Shown: positions 14,783 through 26,824, counted from the first letter of the stretch. The stretch is 45,034 bases of DNA from Bacteriovoracaceae bacterium (GCA_016786485.1 JAEUWD010000028.1:1-45034); one strand, 5' to 3'. The notes: generated by a model from the sequence alone, not told the origin. Numbers and translations: made by a program.

Positions 14783-17281
14783 ATGAAATACAAAATCCTT
14801 TCGTTGATGATCATAACTGACTTACTTCTTGCGCCTGTGATGGTCTCGGCCCAAACTCCTTGCCCAGAAGGACATCAATATACGCCTTCGACAAATACTT
14901 GTAATTTGATTCCAGGGTATAAGCCGCCAACTTCAGCGACAACAACACTTCCTGGGGCTGATGAAATTGTTGATTGCTCAAAAATTGAAAATCAAGGTGA
15001 GCAGACAAAGTGCTACAAAGAAGATGCGGATAAAAAACTCTCTGAGTCAGGACTTGAATCATCAAATCCTCTTAGCGGCAGCAAGCTAACTGCCATATCT
15101 GCAGGAATAAGCGTTGGTTTAGGCACATTAGCTTTTGTTGGGGCTGATACAAAGAGCTGCAAAATCAATTCTGTTAGGTTCATCAAAATAGCTGCGGTTA
15201 CAAACGCCGTAAGTGAATTATCAACATTAGTAATTTATTCTTCCAAGCTAAGCTCACTTGATAGGAAATATAGAGAGATTATTAATACTTCAAACACTGA
15301 AGATGAAACTGATGAGACGAAAAACAAGGAAGGTGTAAATGCTCAAGATAAAGCTTACGAGTTCGTTATCGAGCAAGAAAAAACATACAAAACAATCGGA
15401 ACTACAAAAGGGATTGTTTATGCTGTAACTGGCGCACTATATGCAACAGCAGCTGTATTTTCAGTTATCGAGCAAATTGAAAATACCACTGAGTACACCA
15501 AAGAAGGTACCGCGCAACTCCAGCTCACAGCGGCGGAAGCATCTTTATCAAGTTGCATATTACCTCCAGCATGTGCAGCAGCGTCGAGTGCTGTTGCTAC
15601 CGCTTCTGCTAATTACGTTCAAGCCAAAGCCAGTCGTATAAAAACTGTTAACACAAATACCTGTCGAGCGGGAGAAACCGAGAAGGAAATCAAACAGGCA
15701 GAAGATGAGGCTGCAAAACATTTAGACGAAGTAAATAAGGCAGCTGCGAAAAGAGCAGCTGAGCAAGCAGGTGAAAAAGTAGCTGACGAAGCCACGCAAA
15801 CAGTCACACAAGAAGCGACCAAAGAGGTTACCAAAGAAGCTGGTAAAGCATTGGGGAAAGACATCGCTGCTCAAAATAAAGATAAAATGGTCTCACAGAC
15901 AAATACTGGAATGAAACTACCCGTTATCTCACTAGTTGCGGCCGTCGGACTTTATTTTCTTGTTGATACACTTTTAAAACCAGAAAAAAATAATACGCCT
16001 GCTCCGGCACCTACATCTACTTTTTATAAGAAGCCTTTTAGCATTGATCCTTTTGATTTGTTCTTCAGTCAAAAATTTGGAATGGTAAATCATTTTTGGT
16101 CCAAGATTATTTATGAAAGTGTAAACTATGTTCACGCCATGGCGCTCTTGGGTGGATTAGAAAAAAACATTAAGCAATTAAACTCACTCCTTAAAAACCC
16201 GATTTCGAGAGCTGTTGTAGCTGGTAGTATGGCAGCTGTTAGTGGTACGCTTTCATCACACTCATTTAAAGAAGCAGGCAAAGCTGAAAAAAGAATAAAA
16301 CACCTACAAAGCGTTAGAGATAATGAGTTTGCTTCAACTGCTGCACCAGCAATCGCTCCATGTACGGAAGCAGACAGGGGAAATTCATTAAAGCCTGAAT
16401 GCTACTGCTATAATCCTAGCGGTGATAATAATACAAATTCAGAAAGTAATATTTGTAAAAAAGTTTGGGAAGAAAACAAACAAAAAAATAGAAAAAAAGT
16501 AATTAACAAAATAGCTGAAACTGAAAATATCAAACCAGAGTTTTGTATTAGTGAAGGTAACACTGCGGACTTTTCATGCAAATGTAAAGATACGGGCAAA
16601 TGCCAGTCAATTCCACCGAATATAAATTTAGGTAATATTGGGTCTAGCTATCTAACGAATGCTATCAACGATGCCAATGCGCTCATGTCTGGTCGTTATA
16701 GTGGCGGTGAACTAGCTGCACAGAAAAGTACACAAAATGCGATGGCATTGCTGAAGGGAGCAAGTAAACTTGCAAAAAGTAAAGGCATCGACAAAGAAAT
16801 GGCACCACTTAAAGCGCAAGTCGACAACATGATGAACAACTATCCTCCGGCCGTGCTTGATGCTTATAAAAATGCCAATGGTATGGGTGGTGGTGCTTCG
16901 AGTGCTGGCTCATTAGCAAGTCTCAGTCCAGAGCTCAAAAAAGATATTGAAAAGAAATTAGGAGAGGAATTTAAATCCATCGATGTTGATACTTCAGGTA
17001 CAAGCAGTGCAACCTCAGGAATGGATGATAGTATTGATTTCGGATTTGATGACGAGCCTGTTACGATTGAAGATGCCACCGCTGCCCTCGACACAACTGA
17101 TGCCATGAATGCTGAATATGAAATGAATGTTGATAGTGATATTAGTCCCGCAGGTTCCGACACAAATATTTTTGACATCGTATCACTTCGATACAAACGA
17201 AGCGGCTACCGCAGAATTTTTGGAACAAAAGATGAACAGCAGAGTCTTGATACAGCGGAGAAAACAGACATTAGTCAATAA
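14783..17281 (+). CDS. Exported Cys-rich multi-segment protein, paralogue A (unknown)
   Basis: Unknown 832-aa exported protein. I start it at the ATG at 14783 (SD-like GAGAAG 6 nt upstream) rather than the TTG at 14777. A signal peptide (about 1-23, cleavage after VSA) is followed by a Cys module C27-C40, hydrophobic segments at about 102-120, 209-229, 378-398 and 475-490, an Ala/Glu/Lys-rich coiled-coil stretch (about 300-360), a Cys-rich region (about 527-607, with CYCY and CKC), an acidic Ser/Asp stretch, and IFDIVSLRY at 796-804 before a charged tail. It is a tandem duplicate of the next gene, 19 bp away. Predicted periplasmic or membrane-associated; no known family recognised. Confidence 0.85.
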   Translation: MKYKILSLMIITDLLLAPVMVSAQTPCPEGHQYTPSTNTCNLIPGYKPPTSATTTLPGADEIVDCSKIENQGEQTKCYKEDADKKLSESGLESSNPLSGSKLTAISAGISVGLGTLAFVGADTKSCKINSVRFIKIAAVTNAVSELSTLVIYSSKLSSLDRKYREIINTSNTEDETDETKNKEGVNAQDKAYEFVIEQEKTYKTIGTTKGIVYAVTGALYATAAVFSVIEQIENTTEYTKEGTAQLQLTAAEASLSSCILPPACAAASSAVATASANYVQAKASRIKTVNTNTCRAGETEKEIKQAEDEAAKHLDEVNKAAAKRAAEQAGEKVADEATQTVTQEATKEVTKEAGKALGKDIAAQNKDKMVSQTNTGMKLPVISLVAAVGLYFLVDTLLKPEKNNTPAPAPTSTFYKKPFSIDPFDLFFSQKFGMVNHFWSKIIYESVNYVHAMALLGGLEKNIKQLNSLLKNPISRAVVAGSMAAVSGTLSSHSFKEAGKAEKRIKHLQSVRDNEFASTAAPAIAPCTEADRGNSLKPECYCYNPSGDNNTNSESNICKKVWEENKQKNRKKVINKIAETENIKPEFCISEGNTADFSCKCKDTGKCQSIPPNINLGNIGSSYLTNAINDANALMSGRYSGGELAAQKSTQNAMALLKGASKLAKSKGIDKEMAPLKAQVDNMMNNYPPAVLDAYKNANGMGGGASSAGSLASLSPELKKDIEKKLGEEFKSIDVDTSGTSSATSGMDDSIDFGFDDEPVTIEDATAALDTTDAMNAEYEMNVDSDISPAGSDTNIFDIVSLRYKRSGYRRIFGTKDEQQSLDTAEKTDISQ

Positions 17282-17300
17282 TAGCTATTAGGAAAATATT

Positions 17301-19691
17301 ATGAAAAACCTCATGCTTGTTTTTATTCTTGTTGGCCAACTGGTTCTTTCGCCTGTGGCTTGGTCCTTAACTCAAGCTGACTGTAAAGCAGGGAAAATTT
17401 TTAATTCTAAGACTGGTGCATGTGAAGATTGCGCTCAGGGAACTATCTATAATTCGACAACTAATACGTGCGATGTTCGACAAGATGTTTCTGAGCTGCA
17501 AGGTGAAACGCAAGAGTGTATGAAACTTGAGTCTACTGAAAAACAGAAAGAATGTATGGAAGCAGCTGCCAAAACTCAACTCGATGATTCGGGTCTCGAA
17601 GCTTCAGATGTCAATGGAAGTAAAATATCAGCAATCGCAGCTGGTATTAGTGTTGGTTTAGGCACACTCGCTTTTGTTGGTTCAGATACGAGAAAATGTG
17701 CTGTTCGTTCTGTGCAGTGGATAAAAGCCGCAGCTATCACCAATGCTGCCAGCGAACTTTTGACACTTTGGTATTATACCAACCGCTTAAATAGCCTTAA
17801 TGAAGAATTCGATGAACTGACCATGAAACCTAAAACTGAAGACGAAAAAATTGATGACAAAAATAAACGTGGCGTGAATCTGCAAGATAAAGCTTTTGAA
17901 TACTTAATCGAACAAGAAAAACATTTTAAAGCCGTTGGTAATATCAAGGGAAGCGTTTACGCTGCGACTGGTGCCATGTATGCGACAGCTGGAGTTTATG
18001 CGCTTACTGAGCAAACACAAATTGTAACAGCGGCAGCAACAGCGAAGGCAACTTGTGCGGCAGCAGATGCAGCTTCCGTGGCCACTGCTGGTAGCGCAAG
18101 AGCAGCTTGTGATTCAGCTAAGCTTGCATACCAAAATACGCTAAAGATCAATACATGTAATAGTCCAGAAAGTAACAATGAGCAAAAAAAACTGGAAGAA
18201 AATGCAGAAGAAAAATTTAAAGAACCGACTAAGCAAGATATTAGAGCGGCTAAAAATCAAGATTTAAGAGATGAAGTTAATAAGAACATTCAAGAAGTTA
18301 CGGATAAAAATCCAACCGGCTTCACTCAGAAAAACACAGGAATGATATCACTAGCAAGTGCCGTAGGTTTTGGTTTTCTGATGAAAACACTGAAAAACAA
18401 TGCACCAAAACAAAGCGCTTTACCTTTTGAAAATGAATTAATGGTTTTAGAAACGATGGTTTATCAAAAATATAGCTTTGTGAATTATTTTTGGTCAAAA
18501 ATTATTACCAGAGGAATTCACCTAGCATTAGCTGAGACTGATGCTGCGAAGAATGGGATTTTAGCTGAAATGCAAAAAGAAATTGGAAAACTACGTAATT
18601 TATTATTAAAACCTCTAAGTCGTGCGGCCGTGGCCGGTGCCATGACTGCAGCTTCAACTGCACTTTCCATACACGCTTTTAAAGAAGCTAAAAAGGCTGA
18701 CAAGCGTATGGATTATTTAGAAGGCGTGAGAAAAGATTTTGCCAAGACTGCTGCACCAGCAATTGCTCCGTGTACTACTGAAGATCGTGGTAATCCGCTA
18801 AAACCGATGTGTTATTGTTACGCACCTGAAGGCGGCAAAAACGGCGAACGTCAAAAAAGTCAGGTTTGTAAGAAGCAATGGAACGAAAATCCGAGCTTGG
18901 CCGAACGTGGTGAATATGAAGAAAAAACTGTAAACGCACCAGTTCCAAAACTTTGTATCAGTGTTAACAACACTGCTGACTTTGGATGTCGTTGCAAAGA
19001 TGAAAAGACTGGAAAAAATAAATGTAAATTTATTTCGCCATCATCTGCCATGAGTGGAATACGTTCGAATGCTTTAAAAAATTCTATCACCGATGCCAAT
19101 TCGCTTTTTTCAGGTGACTATGGTGGTGGTGAATTGAGTGCTCAAAAGAGCCGTGAAGCAGCTATCGGTCTTTTAAAAGCATCAAAGAAATTAGCAAAAG
19201 ATAATGGCTTAGAAAAAGAACTCGCGCCACTTCAAAAACAAGTCGATAGTATGTTTGCGAACCCATCACCGACTCTCTCTGGTGCTTTTGAGGGTGCTTT
19301 TGCAGGAAGTAGTACGAATTCACTCGCCAGCTTAAATCCAGAACTCAAAAAAGATATTGAAAAGAAATTAGGTGATGAATTCAAAGCCATTGGTGTTGAA
19401 TACATGAGCCCAACTGGAAAGACAGCCGCGGCCGCAGATGATGGTTTCAGTTTTAATTTGGATGACTCAGGTGGTGGTACGAGTATCGAAACAACTTCTA
19501 TCGAAGAGGTTGATACGATGAATGCGAAATATGATATCATTCAAAATAGTGATATCGATCAGCGCTCAGATAGTAATTTATTTGATATACTTTCCTTGCG
19601 TTATCAAAAAAGTGGATTACGTCATATTTTTGGAAAAAAAGAAGAACAAGAACGACTTGATGACGCTGCAAATACAGACATTAATCAATAG
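17301..19691 (+). CDS. Exported Cys-rich multi-segment protein, paralogue B (unknown)
   Basis: 796-aa paralogue of the preceding protein, colinear over nearly the full length: signal peptide (about 1-22), two consecutive Cys modules (C28-C41 and C44-C57) where A has one, conserved AGISVGLGTLAFVG near 113-127, GVNLQDKAFEYLIEQEK, the TAAPAIAPC/CYCY/ADFGCRCKD Cys region, and LFDILSLRY at 760-768 followed by a 28-residue tail of the same length as in A. It has fewer residues in the central coiled-coil region. The VanY-type gene starts 8 bp downstream, so A-B-VanY probably form one operon. No known domain recognised. Confidence 0.85.
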   Translation: MKNLMLVFILVGQLVLSPVAWSLTQADCKAGKIFNSKTGACEDCAQGTIYNSTTNTCDVRQDVSELQGETQECMKLESTEKQKECMEAAAKTQLDDSGLEASDVNGSKISAIAAGISVGLGTLAFVGSDTRKCAVRSVQWIKAAAITNAASELLTLWYYTNRLNSLNEEFDELTMKPKTEDEKIDDKNKRGVNLQDKAFEYLIEQEKHFKAVGNIKGSVYAATGAMYATAGVYALTEQTQIVTAAATAKATCAAADAASVATAGSARAACDSAKLAYQNTLKINTCNSPESNNEQKKLEENAEEKFKEPTKQDIRAAKNQDLRDEVNKNIQEVTDKNPTGFTQKNTGMISLASAVGFGFLMKTLKNNAPKQSALPFENELMVLETMVYQKYSFVNYFWSKIITRGIHLALAETDAAKNGILAEMQKEIGKLRNLLLKPLSRAAVAGAMTAASTALSIHAFKEAKKADKRMDYLEGVRKDFAKTAAPAIAPCTTEDRGNPLKPMCYCYAPEGGKNGERQKSQVCKKQWNENPSLAERGEYEEKTVNAPVPKLCISVNNTADFGCRCKDEKTGKNKCKFISPSSAMSGIRSNALKNSITDANSLFSGDYGGGELSAQKSREAAIGLLKASKKLAKDNGLEKELAPLQKQVDSMFANPSPTLSGAFEGAFAGSSTNSLASLNPELKKDIEKKLGDEFKAIGVEYMSPTGKTAAAADDGFSFNLDDSGGGTSIETTSIEEVDTMNAKYDIIQNSDIDQRSDSNLFDILSLRYQKSGLRHIFGKKEEQERLDDAANTDINQ

Positions 19692-19699
19692 GAATTCTC

Positions 19700-20386
19700 A
19701 TGAAATTTGACATCCTCACCGGACGAAGTACAAGTCATCTCATGGAGCTTTTGCCTCATCAAAAATTAGTCCATAAAGATATGCGTGATGATTTCGAACG
19801 CCTTTATCTCGCGGGTAAAGCGGCAGGCTTTGATATTCAAATCACAAGCTGCTTTCGCGGCTTTGAGCAACAACTGAATATTTGGAATGCTAAAGCACTC
19901 GGACAACGTGTGCTACTTGATTCACATGGTGAGCCGATTGATTACAACACTCTTTCACCTGAAGAAATTGTATTGGCCATTATGCGATGGTCAGCGATTC
20001 CGGGAGCTTCTCGTCATCACTGGGGAACCGATGTGGATGTCTTTGATGGTAATACGATGAAGCGTGAAGATGTTCAGCTAACTCCACAAGAAGTAGCACC
20101 AGATGGGCCAAGTGGTAAACTTCACCTTTGGTTAAATGAACAAATTAAAAAAAATAAAAGTTTCGGTTTCTTTCGTCCCTACTCAGCTGATCTAGGAGGA
20201 GTCGCTCCAGAAAAATGGCACTTGAGTTATGCCCCCATTTCAAATGAATTTTTTCAGGAATATACGTTAGATGTTTTTAAGAAAAATCTTGAACAATCTA
20301 ATCTGGAATTAGCTCATGTGCTATTAGAAAATCCTGAATTTTACTTTAAACAATACGTCACAAATATCACAAAAGCCCCTTTTTAA
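19700..20386 (+). CDS. VanY-type D-alanyl-D-alanine carboxypeptidase (peptidase M15B-like)
   Basis: Zinc carboxypeptidase-like protein of 228 aa. The SxHxxGxAxD-type motif is S104-R105-H106...G109...D113 (SRHHWGTDVDV, H106 and D113 as zinc ligands), with the second motif EKWH at 171-174 giving the catalytic Glu and third zinc ligand. An upstream SCFRGFEQQLNIWN segment also fits the family. Typical substrates are peptidoglycan stem peptides ending in D-Ala. No signal peptide is visible, which is odd for an enzyme sitting directly behind two exported proteins: either it acts in the cytoplasm on recycled peptides or leaves by another route. SD AGGA precedes the ATG. Confidence 0.87.
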   Translation: MKFDILTGRSTSHLMELLPHQKLVHKDMRDDFERLYLAGKAAGFDIQITSCFRGFEQQLNIWNAKALGQRVLLDSHGEPIDYNTLSPEEIVLAIMRWSAIPGASRHHWGTDVDVFDGNTMKREDVQLTPQEVAPDGPSGKLHLWLNEQIKKNKSFGFFRPYSADLGGVAPEKWHLSYAPISNEFFQEYTLDVFKKNLEQSNLELAHVLLENPEFYFKQYVTNITKAPF

Positions 20387-20484
20387 CGGAAAGAATTACC
20401 ATTGACGCTATTCCTTAATGAAACGCTTATCCGAATACGATAAAATAAAAAGCTACGACTCAATAAGGATATCGGATTTTATTA

Positions 20485-21258
20485 ATGAAGCGATTGTTTC
20501 TATCAGTTATTTTTCTCACCATTGGTTTAACTCAAACAACTTACTCATTTGAGAATTTTACCATTGATGAACAAAGTGAAATTGATGGCATTAAGTTGTC
20601 ATCAGGTAAGCTCGATTCGACTCGAATGTATTCAGCTACTGTCTCACGAGAAATTGATGTGGAAATTGAAAATCTTCGTAAGGCCATTACTGAATTTGAA
20701 AGTCGATGTAATAATCAATATCGCGACAAGAGAAAATACACAGAAGAAAATTTCACTTGTACACAAAAGAATGCCAATCTGATTGAATCGATTCGTATCA
20801 ATGATATCAAATCACCTAAATCAGAGCCAAACAAAATCAATGAATTTCTATTGGCCCGCTACGTTTATAATCGTGGACTGTATCATTTCTATGACCACAT
20901 TATCGAAAAATCTCTAATGGAAGATCATAAGCGTGTTTATATTATCCAACAAACTATGCTGACTGATGATGAGGCCATGAGTATGTTAGGAAGTAATATT
21001 AATAAGCGCGATACAGTCTTTTTACAGGCGCGTGGTATATTCACCTTAAAAGAAATCTCAGCTACAAAAACTTCTCTGACTTATGAATACAGTGCCACAA
21101 CTGAGCATTGGCTCTTAAATAAAAATATTTCGGTTGGAAACTTCTTTTCATCTACCGCGGAAAGTTTATCTGAATTAATGGAACAACTAACTTTGAGCGC
21201 ACTTAAGCATTCCGCTGAAAAGCAAAAAACCATTTCAACTGTTTCAAAAAACCCGTAA
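20485..21258 (+). CDS. Exported protein of unknown function (257 aa)
   Basis: Not recognised. A clear signal peptide (about 1-21, KRLFLSVIFLTIGL...) is followed by a mainly alpha-helical, charged region with a Glu/Lys-rich helix (about 50-75), two Cys (in FESRCNNQ and FTCTQK) that could form a disulfide, and a C-terminal half rich in beta-type residues (FLQARGIFTLKEI, TSLTYEYSATTEHW). It lies 98 bp after the VanY-type gene on the same strand and ends 4 bp from the convergent Gly-rich protein gene. It belongs by position to the exported-protein block. Confidence 0.75.
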   Translation: MKRLFLSVIFLTIGLTQTTYSFENFTIDEQSEIDGIKLSSGKLDSTRMYSATVSREIDVEIENLRKAITEFESRCNNQYRDKRKYTEENFTCTQKNANLIESIRINDIKSPKSEPNKINEFLLARYVYNRGLYHFYDHIIEKSLMEDHKRVYIIQQTMLTDDEAMSMLGSNINKRDTVFLQARGIFTLKEISATKTSLTYEYSATTEHWLLNKNISVGNFFSSTAESLSELMEQLTLSALKHSAEKQKTISTVSKNP

Positions 21259-21262
21259 TTTT

Positions 21263-22870
21263 TTATTTTTCCACTTCGACTTCGACTAATCTTTTTTCAT
21301 CGATGACTTTACCGTAACGCTTAGATATTTTTTCAAAGAGTAAACTATTTCCAGCATCGATATCGGAAGCTAAGTTTCGATCAACCACAACTCCCCCAGT
21401 TTTCTTTTTATCACTATCAAATAAACCACCAAATGGATCTTTATACTCACGGTTTGATGACTTGGAATTGGCTAGACCCTTTCCTGAGCTGTAGGCCATA
21501 CTTGTTTTTCCAACTTTAATTTCGCTCGCATCTTTAGCTTGATTATCTAACTCTCCTGGAGTGTCGCTAAGCGGAGCAGCTCCACTGCCACCACCACCTG
21601 AACCACCAGCACGACCACCGCCGCCTCCTCCACCTGCTGCCGCTTCATAGTAGCCAGCACCTGGTGCTACATCTTTAGCAGTCGCTGAAGGGTTTCCACC
21701 AAGATTGGCCAAGCCACTCGCGAGAGCTTCTTGTTGGGCCGCCGATAATTTATCTGGATTATTACCACCTGATGCATCCAAGACATCAGAATTAAAGCCT
21801 GTTGTATTAGCGTCGCCAGTAATAGCAAAGTTACCTTGCCCTACGGGGCCATAACTTGTTCGATTTGAATTTGCACAACCTGGTAAGGTTGGATTGCTTG
21901 AGCATGCATCCATTGTTGGCATTTCTTGAAGATCATCTTGAAAGTCTTTAAGGTCTTCTTGTACCCCATCAATTAAATTCTTTTGCTTAGCATACTGACC
22001 GGCCAACACTCCACTCATCGCAGACTGACCAGCATAGCGGGTAATCTCAGATGTGAAAAAACCTTTGATTCTTTGATTGGCAAAATATTGAGATTTTTCA
22101 GAAGGATGTTCGTTCAAATATTTATAAAGAAATTTACAATTTGCAGTACTACCAAGTGCTTCTTCACACTTACTTTTATTCTCTCCATCGCCTTCATTTA
22201 ATAACCATTTTTGCGTTTTCCATCCAGCCATGAGGGAACCTAACATAATAGCATTCGCGCCATAAAAACTAGCTTTAATCGTTTCATTTGTTTGTTGATT
22301 TTGAACCACACCCTCCACTGCATTTAATCCTGCCGTTGGGTTTAATGGGTTTTGGGCCACTTGTTGTGTCGCTTGAGTTTGAGCTGATATTTGGCTCACT
22401 TGAATTCCTGGATTTAAAACTGCATTTTCTGAAATAAAAGCAGCATTGTAGGCGTTAATAGCATCTGCACAGTCATTAAAATCCAAAGTTAAATCACTTG
22501 GTTTATTACAGTAGATGCTTGGATTATTAAACAATCGAATATCTTTATCACCATCAGATGGAGCAACCTTTGCGACATAATCCACAACTAACTTTTTAAT
22601 ATCCTCAATATTTGGTTCCCCTGATTCACTGGTATTTGCTGTCGATTTTTCTGGACCCGCTTCATTGCTTGGTTCGTTGGCACATTCCTTATTGTATCGC
22701 TCATTAAGATAACCCACAGTCTGTGTCTTATTTGAATCCGAATCATGATATGATTCTGCCTTTTCTGCCTTTAGCATATTGAGCGCTTCAAGCATTTCAT
22801 CGCAATTAGCGAAACCTGAAGCAATTATTAAATGGGATAAAATAAATGTCGTAAATATTAATTTATTCAT
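21263..22870 (-). CDS. Exported Gly-rich protein with C-terminal LFEKIS-type motif (unknown)
   Basis: Unknown 535-aa exported protein on the strand opposite to its neighbours. Signal peptide about 1-21 (cleavage near FANCDEM). The middle holds Gln/Asn-rich sequence, a pair of Cys (about 330-340, in DACSSNPTLPGCANS), and a low-complexity Gly region (about 412-435) with seven consecutive Gly. Near the C-terminus LFEKISKRY lies at 511-519, matching the motif of both paralogues and of the 984-aa protein. The rest shows no similarity that I can see to those proteins. Surface or periplasmic location is inferred. Confidence 0.8.
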   Translation of the reverse strand: MNKLIFTTFILSHLIIASGFANCDEMLEALNMLKAEKAESYHDSDSNKTQTVGYLNERYNKECANEPSNEAGPEKSTANTSESGEPNIEDIKKLVVDYVAKVAPSDGDKDIRLFNNPSIYCNKPSDLTLDFNDCADAINAYNAAFISENAVLNPGIQVSQISAQTQATQQVAQNPLNPTAGLNAVEGVVQNQQTNETIKASFYGANAIMLGSLMAGWKTQKWLLNEGDGENKSKCEEALGSTANCKFLYKYLNEHPSEKSQYFANQRIKGFFTSEITRYAGQSAMSGVLAGQYAKQKNLIDGVQEDLKDFQDDLQEMPTMDACSSNPTLPGCANSNRTSYGPVGQGNFAITGDANTTGFNSDVLDASGGNNPDKLSAAQQEALASGLANLGGNPSATAKDVAPGAGYYEAAAGGGGGGGRAGGSGGGGSGAAPLSDTPGELDNQAKDASEIKVGKTSMAYSSGKGLANSKSSNREYKDPFGGLFDSDKKKTGGVVVDRNLASDIDAGNSLLFEKISKRYGKVIDEKRLVEVEVEK

Positions 22871-23165
22871 ATAACTCCATCGTAAGGCTTTATCGGTCTT
22901 TTTCTAAAAAACTTTAGCATTTCAGATGGTTATTCTTATTAAATCAGCAACTTAAACAAATATGCTGTCGTTTTTTAGGAGATGGCCAATGACCAGAATT
23001 TTGGGCGGCCAAAGGTGTTAAGAAAATTAGCTTAAAAAGTTATTAATTCTAAATTCCTTATTATTATCAATAAGTTAGCAGGCTCCACTGCTAACTACCT
23101 GAAACCTCAAGATGGACTCAATATATAATTAAACTATAAAAGAGTTTTTAACGAAAAGAGGACAC
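22871..23165. other. Divergent intergenic region with a hairpin
   Basis: This 295-bp AT-rich gap separates two divergent exported-protein genes, so promoters for both should lie here. On plus, TATAAT (23124-23129) and TATAAA (23135-23140) are possible -10 boxes for the 984-aa gene, but no good -35 is spaced for either. A perfect hairpin lies at 23073-23096. The reader should treat promoter calls here as tentative. No open reading frame of note. Confidence 0.5.
23073..23096. repeat. Perfect 9-bp inverted repeat upstream of the 984-aa gene
   Basis: AGTTAGCAG (23073-23081) and CTGCTAACT (23088-23096) flank a six-base loop GCTCCA. There is no T-run on either side, so it is not a typical terminator. 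Its place about 30 bp before the candidate -10 boxes would suit an operator; an RNA structure is the alternative. Confidence 0.5.
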
Positions 23166-26120
23166 ATGAGATATTTTACTTTATTACTTTTATTTTTGTC
23201 ATTTGACCTCTACGCGCAAACTCCGCCGCCTGGTGCGACCGCTCCCGTTGGTGTACTAAAAGAAAAGGCACGTTGTACTCCTTATGTTGATGCTAGTGCA
23301 ACCTCTCCACTTCAAACTCACTATCAACTTCTACAAGGAGCTTCTTGCCCTACAAATACTGGTTGTTTTGAATCAACTGCTGACGAACTTATTACTCCTG
23401 GAAATTCTGAAACACTAACGACAGCACAAGAAGATGAGCTAGATGATGTGAATGATAAATTATCTGATACGGCTGGCATGAAAATCGGTGATACATGTGG
23501 CTGGCCTGCCAGGACATTTCAGCATAGTAGTCACTATTATGCTAATCCACCTTACAACGATGTTAGGTCTAAACTTGATACTGCATTCCCAAATCGTTCA
23601 ATCATTGATCGTCCTGAAGACGTTTTCTGTATGTCACTTGATTGCAGTGCAACTACGAATAAGTGTGTTGAATCGAAAATCTGCCGTTGTGCCAAGAACG
23701 ATGAGGCGGCTCCGACTGGTGACTATTGCTGCCCAGGTCACTTATTTGATGATGCTAACAAAGTTTGTAAAGACTTTGGTAGTATTTTTAGATCCGCAGT
23801 ATTTATTCCACCACCGCCACCAACTCAAGCTAACGGATGTAATATTAATTTCCCTTCGAACAATCCTTCACGAGAAATTTATGTAGTTTCATCAGCGATC
23901 ATGAGATCATTTGAAATCCTAACTTCATTTGATCGCGATGGAGGGGACCGTCAATTTAGATTATTTAATTTTTTAGAAAATTATGGTCATGATGGTGGAT
24001 CTAATGATGACCTCTTTATGATGTATCAAGGCTATAACAATGGGTATGAGGGAGCGACTCAATACCTTACAAAAACTCGAAAAGAAATTATTCGAGAATA
24101 CAAGAGTTTAAAAGATTTTCTTGAGCAGAAAAAAGAACAACTTCTTAATGATACATCAAAAAAAGCCAAGGCCCAGCTAGCAGCAGGAACAGTTATCTTT
24201 GATGTCATGACGGCTGAACAAGAAATTGTGAGACAGTATGAATTAGCATTAAGAGATATGCTGGATAATTGGTATGCCGCAGGCTTAAATTCTAATCAAA
24301 TTGCAGCACTTGCGACAGAAAATCACAATGACCCATCTTACGGCCCAGCAATGGAGAAATGTTATCGAGGTGATTTACCATTACGCGGAAATACATCTGG
24401 TGCTAGTTTAAAAAGAATGAATCACCTGTGCTTTCTTCAGACCTGGAGACATCACGCACATAAAGATGATGGCCACGAACGTGAATGTAATAAAGAAAAT
24501 ATTTGGGTTATTCTAAGCTGGGCAGGAGTTAATCCTCACAAGTGGAATAATCGCTGTTTCAAACGAATGCTTAAAGTTCGCAATGGCGGTCACTATAATC
24601 CTGGTTTGGCCGACTACTTAATGATTCACCCACTCAATCACCTTAATGAATGGCGTAATTATCGATTATATGATCTTTGGATTCCTAATCTTAAAAAAGT
24701 TAGTTCAAGTTTGGATAATAGAGTAGTTTGGGATGATCATAACCCAGTTATGTGGGGCAATAAGAAAATCGCAGAGAATTTAGCTGGTGATAGAAAAAAA
24801 GCAATGGAAGGAAATCAAGGCTCCAACTTTTATGAACTAACGAAAGCAACAGTTATACAGTACTTAAAAAATATGCATGGTCTTGACAATGAATATGTCG
24901 ATTTCGAGCTAGGCATTTTAAAATCGTGCCTCGACGATCCCGTCAAAATGGATCAGGAGTCCTGCAATGGAACAAGGCTTTGGATCAAAAATATTTCGGA
25001 AATAGTTTTCTCGATGAATCACGCATGGGCCTTCGGTATGACCCAGAGCGATCAGGACCGTGTTCTTGAAAAAGGCTCACGTCGCCAGGCACTTCTTGAA
25101 TTAGTTCAACAAGCTTATGTTTATTCTTCATCATACCTCGATGGCGTAGCTCAATTACGCAGAGACAGAATTTCATGCTTACTCGATATGAAAGATGCAC
25201 GTATCGCTGAGTTCAGTGGAGGCCTCGATCTGGAAGCTGGTAATTACCAAGATCAGGGTACTGGTACGGTTCAAGCTAGCCAACAAGCACGAAATAATAA
25301 TTATCGTTATAAACAATATAACGCCTTCTTACCTGGCGTTCCAGGTTCCATCAATATGGGCCTTAATTCAGAAGGTAATAGTAGCACCATCTCATCTCGC
25401 CTCTTTGGCTCTGCAGGCGTCGATGGTTTTGGAAGTTCACATGCAGCTATCTTAAATAAATCTGCCTCTGAAAAAGCGATGAAGAACCCGGCCTTAAAAG
25501 CTGCGTTTGATAAACTAAATCCAGGTGCTGAAATAGCATCGGTTGTTACAAAAAATAAAGACGCCATTTCAACTCTCATGTCAGGTAGCATGAGTGGCGG
25601 TAGTTTAAACGGCTCTGGTAGCGGACAAAACGCTCTCGCAGCTTTATCACCAAGTGCTATTGCCGGTGGGGCGGGTAAATTAAGTGATGACAAAAAAGAT
25701 GAAAAAAATAAATTAGGTAACGGTGTGGATGCCGCCGGATATCAGAATGGCGCTGGCGGTGCCAACTCAGGACTTGGAAACCTCTGGGGTGAAAGCAGCT
25801 CTGGAAATTCACAATACGGTAATAACGGCGACGGTAGCGGCAGCAACGGCTCAGGTAATGATTTATCAGTCAGCGGCAGTATGTTAAACGACACTGAAAA
25901 AGAATCAATCTTAGCTAATTTGAAAAAGTCACAATACCAAGACAAAGAGGGCGATACCCTTTTTGATAAGATCTCAAAAAATTATGTGCTCTATGCGTAT
26001 CCAAGACTGTTAAGTCGTAAGCAACTTCCGACGCAAAATCTGGATAAGAAGAATGCGCCTGAAATGAAAGACGACAAAAAAGCGAATCTCTTGGATGGTT
26101 TAAAAAATTTCGGTAATTAA
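23166..26120 (+). CDS. Large exported Cys/His-rich protein with C-terminal LFDKIS-type motif (unknown)
   Basis: Unknown 984-aa exported protein. Signal peptide about 1-17 (cleavage after LYA). A Cys-rich N-terminal part (about 37-205) includes a C189-C201 module resembling those of paralogues A and B and a KICRCAKND segment. The middle (about 215-690) is a globular region unusually rich in Trp, His and Asn with further Cys (for example HLCFLQTWRHH, CFKRML), with no domain I recognise. The last third is Gly/Ser/Asn-rich and low complexity, and LFDKISKNY lies at 932-940, 44 residues before the end. SD AAGAGG precedes the ATG. Its stop overlaps the convergent gene's stop within TTAA. Confidence 0.83.
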   Translation: MRYFTLLLLFLSFDLYAQTPPPGATAPVGVLKEKARCTPYVDASATSPLQTHYQLLQGASCPTNTGCFESTADELITPGNSETLTTAQEDELDDVNDKLSDTAGMKIGDTCGWPARTFQHSSHYYANPPYNDVRSKLDTAFPNRSIIDRPEDVFCMSLDCSATTNKCVESKICRCAKNDEAAPTGDYCCPGHLFDDANKVCKDFGSIFRSAVFIPPPPPTQANGCNINFPSNNPSREIYVVSSAIMRSFEILTSFDRDGGDRQFRLFNFLENYGHDGGSNDDLFMMYQGYNNGYEGATQYLTKTRKEIIREYKSLKDFLEQKKEQLLNDTSKKAKAQLAAGTVIFDVMTAEQEIVRQYELALRDMLDNWYAAGLNSNQIAALATENHNDPSYGPAMEKCYRGDLPLRGNTSGASLKRMNHLCFLQTWRHHAHKDDGHERECNKENIWVILSWAGVNPHKWNNRCFKRMLKVRNGGHYNPGLADYLMIHPLNHLNEWRNYRLYDLWIPNLKKVSSSLDNRVVWDDHNPVMWGNKKIAENLAGDRKKAMEGNQGSNFYELTKATVIQYLKNMHGLDNEYVDFELGILKSCLDDPVKMDQESCNGTRLWIKNISEIVFSMNHAWAFGMTQSDQDRVLEKGSRRQALLELVQQAYVYSSSYLDGVAQLRRDRISCLLDMKDARIAEFSGGLDLEAGNYQDQGTGTVQASQQARNNNYRYKQYNAFLPGVPGSINMGLNSEGNSSTISSRLFGSAGVDGFGSSHAAILNKSASEKAMKNPALKAAFDKLNPGAEIASVVTKNKDAISTLMSGSMSGGSLNGSGSGQNALAALSPSAIAGGAGKLSDDKKDEKNKLGNGVDAAGYQNGAGGANSGLGNLWGESSSGNSQYGNNGDGSGSNGSGNDLSVSGSMLNDTEKESILANLKKSQYQDKEGDTLFDKISKNYVLYAYPRLLSRKQLPTQNLDKKNAPEMKDDKKANLLDGLKNFGN

Positions 26121-26824
26121 GATTTTTTCTTTTTCTTTAAGATAATAAAACCAATCGCAGCAGCACCTAATAGTAGGTACATCATTGAATCATCACCTGT
26201 GCCTGAAGAAGCACGCTTCTGCGTCGTTGCCTGTGCAGCTAAATCAACTCGTTGTTCTGGAATGAAAGTCGTGTCCTCAAGACCTCCACCCGCTTTAGCT
26301 GTACGTAAATCGTTTAGGCCCTTATTACTTTGTCTAAAGACTTTCATCGAAGTCACAACTTTATCAAAAATCGGCTGGTAACTTTCGTAACTCGTTTTTG
26401 CGACTGAGAAAGTAATCGCCACGCCAAGGTCTTCTTTTACTGTGGCCAAATAGCGTGTATAAAAGCCCGGAACTTCACTCGCCATATGAAGAGCATCAAC
26501 CCATTGTTGACCATTCACGTTCGTGATCTTAGCACTGGTTTTCGCTTCAGAAACCTGTGTTTTACCACCTGGAAGCGTATATGTTTTCGGCTGGTTCAAA
26601 TAAGCTTGATATTGATCCAATGAGTCTTTCTCACCACGAACTTTTGCTGCAAGAATGATGATTGCTTCACGCTTTCTCTCACTCACGTCACTCTGACAAA
26701 CGTATTCTGAGCCTTCAAGAGCACAATCCCAACCACTTGGAAGTTCAAACTCGATATATTGATTCGAGAAAGACTTTGCCCAAATATTAGTCGTTATAAG
26801 GGAGAGAAAAAGCGCCAATTTCAT
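26117..26824 (-). CDS. Exported protein with C-terminal membrane anchor and Lys tail (unknown)
   Basis: Unknown 235-aa protein. Signal peptide about 1-16 (cleavage after IWA), a compact domain with one Cys pair (WDCALEGSEYVCQ, about 34-44) and a mixed alpha/beta pattern to about 165, a linker with Thr/Gln/Gly, then a tripartite end: GTGDDSMM, a hydrophobic stretch (about 212-228) and KKKKKS as the very last residues. This layout (short polar motif, membrane helix, basic cluster) resembles C-terminal sorting signals handled by sortase-like or rhombosortase-like systems, but matches no known motif exactly. It overlaps the 984-aa gene by 4 bp tail to tail. Confidence 0.8.
   Translation of the reverse strand: MKLALFLSLITTNIWAKSFSNQYIEFELPSGWDCALEGSEYVCQSDVSERKREAIIILAAKVRGEKDSLDQYQAYLNQPKTYTLPGGKTQVSEAKTSAKITNVNGQQWVDALHMASEVPGFYTRYLATVKEDLGVAITFSVAKTSYESYQPIFDKVVTSMKVFRQSNKGLNDLRTAKAGGGLEDTTFIPEQRVDLAAQATTQKRASSGTGDDSMMYLLLGAAAIGFIILKKKKKS

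Follow-up and report, generated by a model that had tools for sequence, protein, structure and literature searches.

A conserved Bacteriovoracaceae locus encoding exported proteins with a common C-terminal motif

Gene content of the locus

Seven open reading frames occupy positions 14783-26824 of the window (the whole 45,034-nucleotide stretch of DNA analysed here, contig C67 of a 2.98-Mb genome), lie on both strands and have the coordinates given in the initial annotation. The first two, orf1 (832 amino acids; 14783..17281, + strand) and orf2 (796 amino acids; 17301..19691, + strand), are tandem paralogues with 46% identity, consistent with the duplication reported earlier, and have the same architecture: a signal peptide, a Cys-bearing N-terminus, moderately hydrophobic helices, a domain with eight cysteines, a linker and a C-terminal motif. 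These are followed by orf3 (228 amino acids; 19700..20386, + strand), a VanY-type (M15B) carboxypeptidase without a signal peptide, and orf4 (257 amino acids; 20485..21258, + strand), an exported protein. The product of orf5 (535 amino acids; 21263..22870, − strand) combines a signal peptide, a helical core (residues 113-318), a Gly-rich linker and the C-terminal motif, and orf6 (984 amino acids; 23166..26120, + strand) encodes a Cys-rich exported protein that also carries the motif. The block closes with orf7 (235 amino acids; 26117..26824, − strand), whose product has an N-terminal hydrophobic signal, a C-terminal transmembrane segment and a Lys tail. The many cysteines and the Gly-rich and acidic low-complexity tails noted previously are present in the block products, and hydrophobic signal-like N-termini occur, as claimed, on six of the seven (all except orf3), on the basis of simple hydropathy rather than a trained predictor. 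A complete bacterial 16S rRNA gene (positions 17-1546, − strand; RF00177, 1567 bits) accounts for the jump in GC content at the window's left end.

The products of orf1, orf2, orf5 and orf6 matched no family in Pfam, NCBIfam, PHROG or the PDB. Sequence searches of the PDB with orf2, orf5 and orf6 returned only low-complexity or otherwise weak matches, and the sole match below E = 0.1 for an orf2 profile was a weak one to a colicin (E = 0.005). Profile and structure searches had been proposed for the products; their novelty was upheld by the lack of a convincing PDB sequence match for orf2, orf5 and orf6 and of a significant Foldseek match for orf2 and orf5 (no E below 0.001 against the PDB), and failed for orf3, which is VanY. 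A CBM_14-like match at the N-terminus of orf2 was rejected, being under the Pfam cut-off and reached by only one family member at E = 0.001. Also rejected were a mobile-element or phage origin, given the synteny with the flanks and a lone weak, chance-level PHROG match (orf4, function unknown), and a defence system, given that PADLOC produced a single weak match in the block, again at chance level. A genome scan with orf2 as a single sequence found no relatives; an alignment of the orf2 family used as the query retrieved relatives where the single sequence had not, at loci named Bacteriovoracaceae, Bacteriovorax and Halobacteriovorax, among others, which places the host in Bacteriovoracaceae (Bdellovibrionota).

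Conservation of the block and its flanks

Families of the block genes were widespread among 116 sampled genomes of the class: that of orf2 was found in 92, that of orf3 in 88, that of orf5 in 73 and that of orf6 in 19, and homologues of orf4 in 51. The widest distribution in the block was that of orf7, with family members in 109 of these genomes (43-66% identity in nearly all near-full-length matches) that are often unlinked to the block.

About 70 mapped loci, not all from separate genomes, revealed a recurring order: genes for a DsbH-like protein, a CoA-transferase, an FKBP-type protein, an epimerase, a C92 peptidase, orf1/2 and orf3, then a Tyr/Pro-rich exported protein, a thioesterase, orf5, O6L and orf7, and finally an outer-membrane-like protein, a 2'-5' RNA ligase-like protein and enolase (the FKBP-type and outer-membrane-like assignments are our own reading of the sequences; the other neighbours carry the names and functions of their annotations). 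The check on neighbourhood conservation called for earlier came out positive: the order of orf1/2 and orf5 is kept over dozens of genera, and some genera retain only parts of the full arrangement. In 44 of the 46 genomes with both genes on one contig, orf2 and orf5 are at most 12 kb apart, the exceptions being two g2 genomes (G001 and G014) in which they lie far apart on the same contig. Of 36 orf1/2 loci sampled, 34 had orf5, 33 the thioesterase and 31 the C92 peptidase. The C92 (YiiX-like) peptidase gene is on the strand opposite orf1/2 in all 31 adjoining loci (L054-L068, L072 and others), and the 4HBT thioesterase gene sits between orf3 and orf5 in the loci of relatives. Neither gene was found in the window block, where orf4 is present instead; among relatives, orf4 was seen inside the block in the closest one only (G016).

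The initial annotation had the block interrupting housekeeping genes. Judged by gene order, the flanks and the block form a single ancestral syntenic neighbourhood, and the block is no insertion, its gene order being conserved, flanks included, across Bacteriovoracaceae. By its distribution, orf4 is a passenger and no conserved member of the block. The earlier description of the seven genes as linked genes for exported proteins of no known family is therefore upheld in part: the common motif and the gene order support the linkage, and all seven as one unit was rejected, given that orf4 is a passenger and that membership of orf3 is unlikely.

A tree placed orf1 and orf2 as sisters (support 100/99), so their duplication is lineage-specific; another tandem pair of the same family arose separately in G046. 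The domain of eight cysteines spans C527-C607 in orf1 (16361..16603, + strand) and C491-C575 in orf2 (18771..19025, + strand), with all eight positions invariant or nearly invariant in 22 homologues, and part of its pattern (C-x10-C-x-C-x-C) was found again in other motif proteins. Family-averaged hydropathy of orf1/2 gave three moderately hydrophobic segments of marginal strength (family mean KD 1.4-1.6), which could be either membrane-spanning or buried helices. O6L, whose position in many relatives is held by orf6 in the window, is homologous to the orf2 family over most of its length (E = 1e-25).

The VanY-type enzyme

By its domain and motifs, orf3 is a VanY-type M15B carboxypeptidase with predicted activity (PF02557 in Pfam, residues 22-179, E = 2e-24; NCBIfam agrees), and it is the sole recognised enzyme of the block, as had been stated; neither database recognised a family in any of the other six products. 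The zinc-ligand motifs SxHxxGxxxD and ExWH are present in the window copy and in 42 of 47 copies counted. PF02557 and these motifs are shared with VanY/LdcB M15B carboxypeptidases, in contrast to which none of the 47 orf3 copies, the window copy included, has a hydrophobic N-terminus, and the enzyme is probably cytoplasmic. Its neighbours include a gene for an L-Ala-D/L-Glu epimerase-like protein and often also the C92 peptidase gene. Given the lack of a signal peptide, the zinc motifs and these neighbours, orf3 fits murein-peptide recycling, and its product is more likely to be a cytoplasmic murein-peptide carboxypeptidase, encoded next to the epimerase gene, than a member of an assembly with the exported proteins.

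A common C-terminal motif

The products of orf1, orf2, orf5 and orf6 end in a motif, [IL]F-x-x-[IV]-S-x-R-Y (SKNY in orf6), that is preceded by a low-complexity linker and trailed by a basic/aromatic stretch. A profile of 35 positions located it in orf1 (NIFDIVSLRYKRSGYRRIF; 17144..17239, + strand; profile A2, E = 6.6e-13), orf2 (NLFDILSLRYQKSGLRHIF; 19548..19649, + strand; E = 1.4e-12), orf5 (LLFEKISKRY; 21266..21367, − strand; E = 3.1e-10) and orf6 (TLFDKISKNYVLYAYPRLL; 25929..26027, + strand; E = 1.8e-11). The earlier observation that four products share such a motif was thus confirmed well beyond the window: across the syntenic loci, a regular expression recovered it in 158 of 167 tails of these families and in none of 674 other open reading frames, with no matches outside the tails of family proteins and 0.3 matches expected from shuffled tails over all open reading frames. 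The distance from the motif to the protein end is about 11-44 amino acids in the block families, and the Phe, Ser, Arg and Tyr positions of the motif are nearly invariant. Profile-profile comparison of the orf2 and orf5 families yielded a match confined to the last 36 columns (E = 2.8e-5), which indicates that the tag is modular and common to unrelated bodies. No hydrophobic segment was found in the C-terminal part of orf1, orf2, orf5 or orf6, no NCBIfam sorting model matched these four up to E = 1, and the literature searched nowhere described the motif.

The profile retrieved six motif proteins from the genome of the window: the four of the block, one of 516 amino acids on contig C41 and one of 1,805 amino acids on contig C4. 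The latter (L133:4991-10408, G000:C4, − strand) has 53 cysteines, N-terminal repeats and the C-terminal motif, and matched nothing in Pfam. A motif protein of about 520-540 amino acids (L046:6187-7737, G000:C41; L151:7058-8671) occurs in at least two genera in a neighbourhood that is similar to, yet distinct from, that of the block. Each of nine relatives searched gave about 5-20 profile matches, the weakest of them noise, and almost all motif proteins found by the profile had signal-like N-termini by inspection. G055 (L145, L146, L147, L148, L149, L150 and L152) had about 17-20 matches as against the usual 5-10, mostly large exported proteins. Among the neighbours inspected of solitary motif genes, no partner or exporter gene recurred.

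Related tails across Bdellovibrionota

Outside the family, the motif profile gave weak matches (E = 1e-5 to 1e-2), with the motif clearly at the C-terminus in 14 of 16 loci, mostly in proteins with a signal-like start. An extended profile matched in 47 of 144 genomes of the class of G280 at E = 0.02 or better, and in all 28 resolvable loci of that class the motif was 10-30 amino acids from the C-terminus. This placement is independent support, as the profile search imposes no such position. The orf5 family and a family of neighbouring genes in Bdellovibrionia have their last approximately 66 columns in common (E = 1.2e-11).

Of 15 wider loci, which had been picked by the motif, 6 (from four families) have a TadE/G-like (PF13400) gene immediately upstream in the same orientation; two of its copies matched PF13400 (E = 8e-7 and 4e-8), and the remaining copies are close homologues of them. 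At L201, L203, L204, L205, L207 and L208, two or three exported proteins are encoded downstream of the TadE/G-like gene, at least one with the tail motif. The Bacteriovoracaceae loci that were retrieved showed no Tad gene, and none of the seven window proteins matched PF13400.

Possible roles of the tagged proteins

We give a probability of about 0.5 to the block being a conserved core locus of Sec-exported envelope proteins with a common tag that docks into a shared assembly. The tagged proteins would be exported by Sec and then retained in the inner membrane or periplasm, given the moderately hydrophobic helices of orf1/2 and O6L and the disulphide-type Cys domain of orf1/2. The flexible linker would let the tail helix reach one common envelope partner and dock there, and docking would gather the differing bodies into one assembly.

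An alternative raised by the predicted structures, and in our view very unlikely, is that orf1/2, O6L and orf5 breach the envelope of prey as ClyA-like alpha-helical pore formers, in the manner of multi-component alpha-pore-forming toxins. The AlphaFold2 model of orf2 is largely helical (mean pLDDT 62), that of orf5 has a confident helical core at residues 113-318 (mean pLDDT 58), and in both the motif was modelled, at low confidence, as an isolated helix (residues 760-777 in orf2, pLDDT about 60; pLDDT about 41-52 in orf5). The genes of several homologous helical proteins cluster, and the models resemble, in a weak match, the long-helix bundle of the ClyA family (ClyA, AhlB/C, SmhB, YaxAB and MakB): when the Foldseek matches were re-examined with VIA-align, the first nine places for orf2 (Z = 7.1-9.3) and the majority of the first ten for orf5 (Z up to 9.5) went to ClyA-family members, though Z below about 13 is common among helical bundles, and TolC, BAR domains and designed bundles ranked only slightly lower. 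Foldseek likewise ranked AhlC first for orf5, at an E of just 0.26, with the ClyA family otherwise no better. The modest confidence of the orf2 model, the lack of any Pfam match to such a family and the colicin hit as the only PDB match of the orf2 profile below E = 0.1 also weigh against pores, and the likeness of these models to alpha-pore-forming toxins is weak, a lead at most. Unlike ClyA-family toxins, orf1/2 carry the domain of eight cysteines and orf1, orf2, orf5 and orf6 the C-terminal motif; to our knowledge, no motif of this kind has been described for that family.

The locus might instead serve mainly murein recycling or the cell wall, with the large exported proteins structural and their tails binding peptidoglycan or an envelope lipid. 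This would accommodate the epimerase-like gene, the VanY-type enzyme and the C92 peptidase of relatives nearby, but other motif proteins sit in unrelated neighbourhoods, and the near-invariant Phe, Ser, Arg and Tyr better suit a specific contact with a protein (lipid binding is possible), which makes such a role distinctly unlikely. An export signal has somewhat better prospects and is still unlikely: after Sec transport to the periplasm, an undescribed outer-membrane exporter would read the tail helix and deliver the protein to the surface or to prey. That many diverse proteins with signal peptides carry the motif at their C-termini throughout the phylum, with a low-complexity linker ahead of it, would suit such a signal; against it, the hydrophobic helices of orf1/2 and O6L would, if real, anchor the proteins in the inner membrane, the block-family motif is not terminal, and the solitary motif genes inspected have no exporter gene as a recurrent neighbour.

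Docking of tagged envelope proteins into a shared assembly can be set beside what is described for predatory bacteria. According to passages of two papers (PMC12075869, PMC8460266), Myxococcus uses Tad-type pili with TadG-like tips in contact killing, and such pili and Tip complexes are predicted in Bdellovibrio; the tail motif is not mentioned in these passages. The Kil/Tad Tip complexes (KilLMN, TadE/F/G) resemble the tagged proteins in that both are large accessory proteins exported by predators. Some Bdellovibrionia tail-motif genes come after a TadE/G-like gene; unlike the Kil/Tad minor pilins, the window proteins have no TadE/G-like domain, and the Bacteriovoracaceae loci retrieved showed no Tad gene. 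The TadE/G-like gene upstream of related tail-motif genes in other Bdellovibrionota gives a further, fainter hint of a connection with Tad-type pili or an apparatus for prey contact, and, together with the lineage, makes a prey-contact role plausible. Related tags on exported proteins throughout the phylum suggest an undescribed way to place proteins in the cell envelope. Only tentatively, and with considerable doubt, can this be extended to an undescribed phylum-wide helix tag that singles out Sec-exported proteins for a single, dedicated export route or envelope assembly in prey contact, possibly Tad-connected, with the block as its conserved core in Bacteriovoracaceae. Little is known of how Bdellovibrio-like predators build their apparatus for prey contact and entry, and many proteins that they export lack annotation; the tail picks out about 5-20 exported proteins per genome, with relatives phylum-wide, and so predicts which belong together and provides a direct handle for finding their common partner.

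Comparison with sorting signals

PEP-CTERM, the MYXO-CTERM and LPXTG anchors and the T9SS CTD likewise place a short C-terminal signature on many unrelated Sec-exported proteins of one lineage. In contrast to the T9SS CTD, the motif is modelled as a single helix of about 20 amino acids with no beta-sandwich and has no NCBIfam sorting-domain match, and in contrast to known sorting signals it often stops 11-44 amino acids short of the end in the block. A C-terminal transmembrane helix with a basic tail, as in PEP-CTERM, MYXO-CTERM and LPXTG proteins, is absent from orf1, orf2, orf5 and orf6; among the block products it occurs in orf7 only, which has no C-terminal motif of the orf1/2/5/6 kind. 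The C-terminus of orf7 (hydrophobic helix and Lys tail) resembles C-terminal anchor signals, and it gave weak NCBIfam matches to Loki-CTERM/LPXTG models, under the cut-off.
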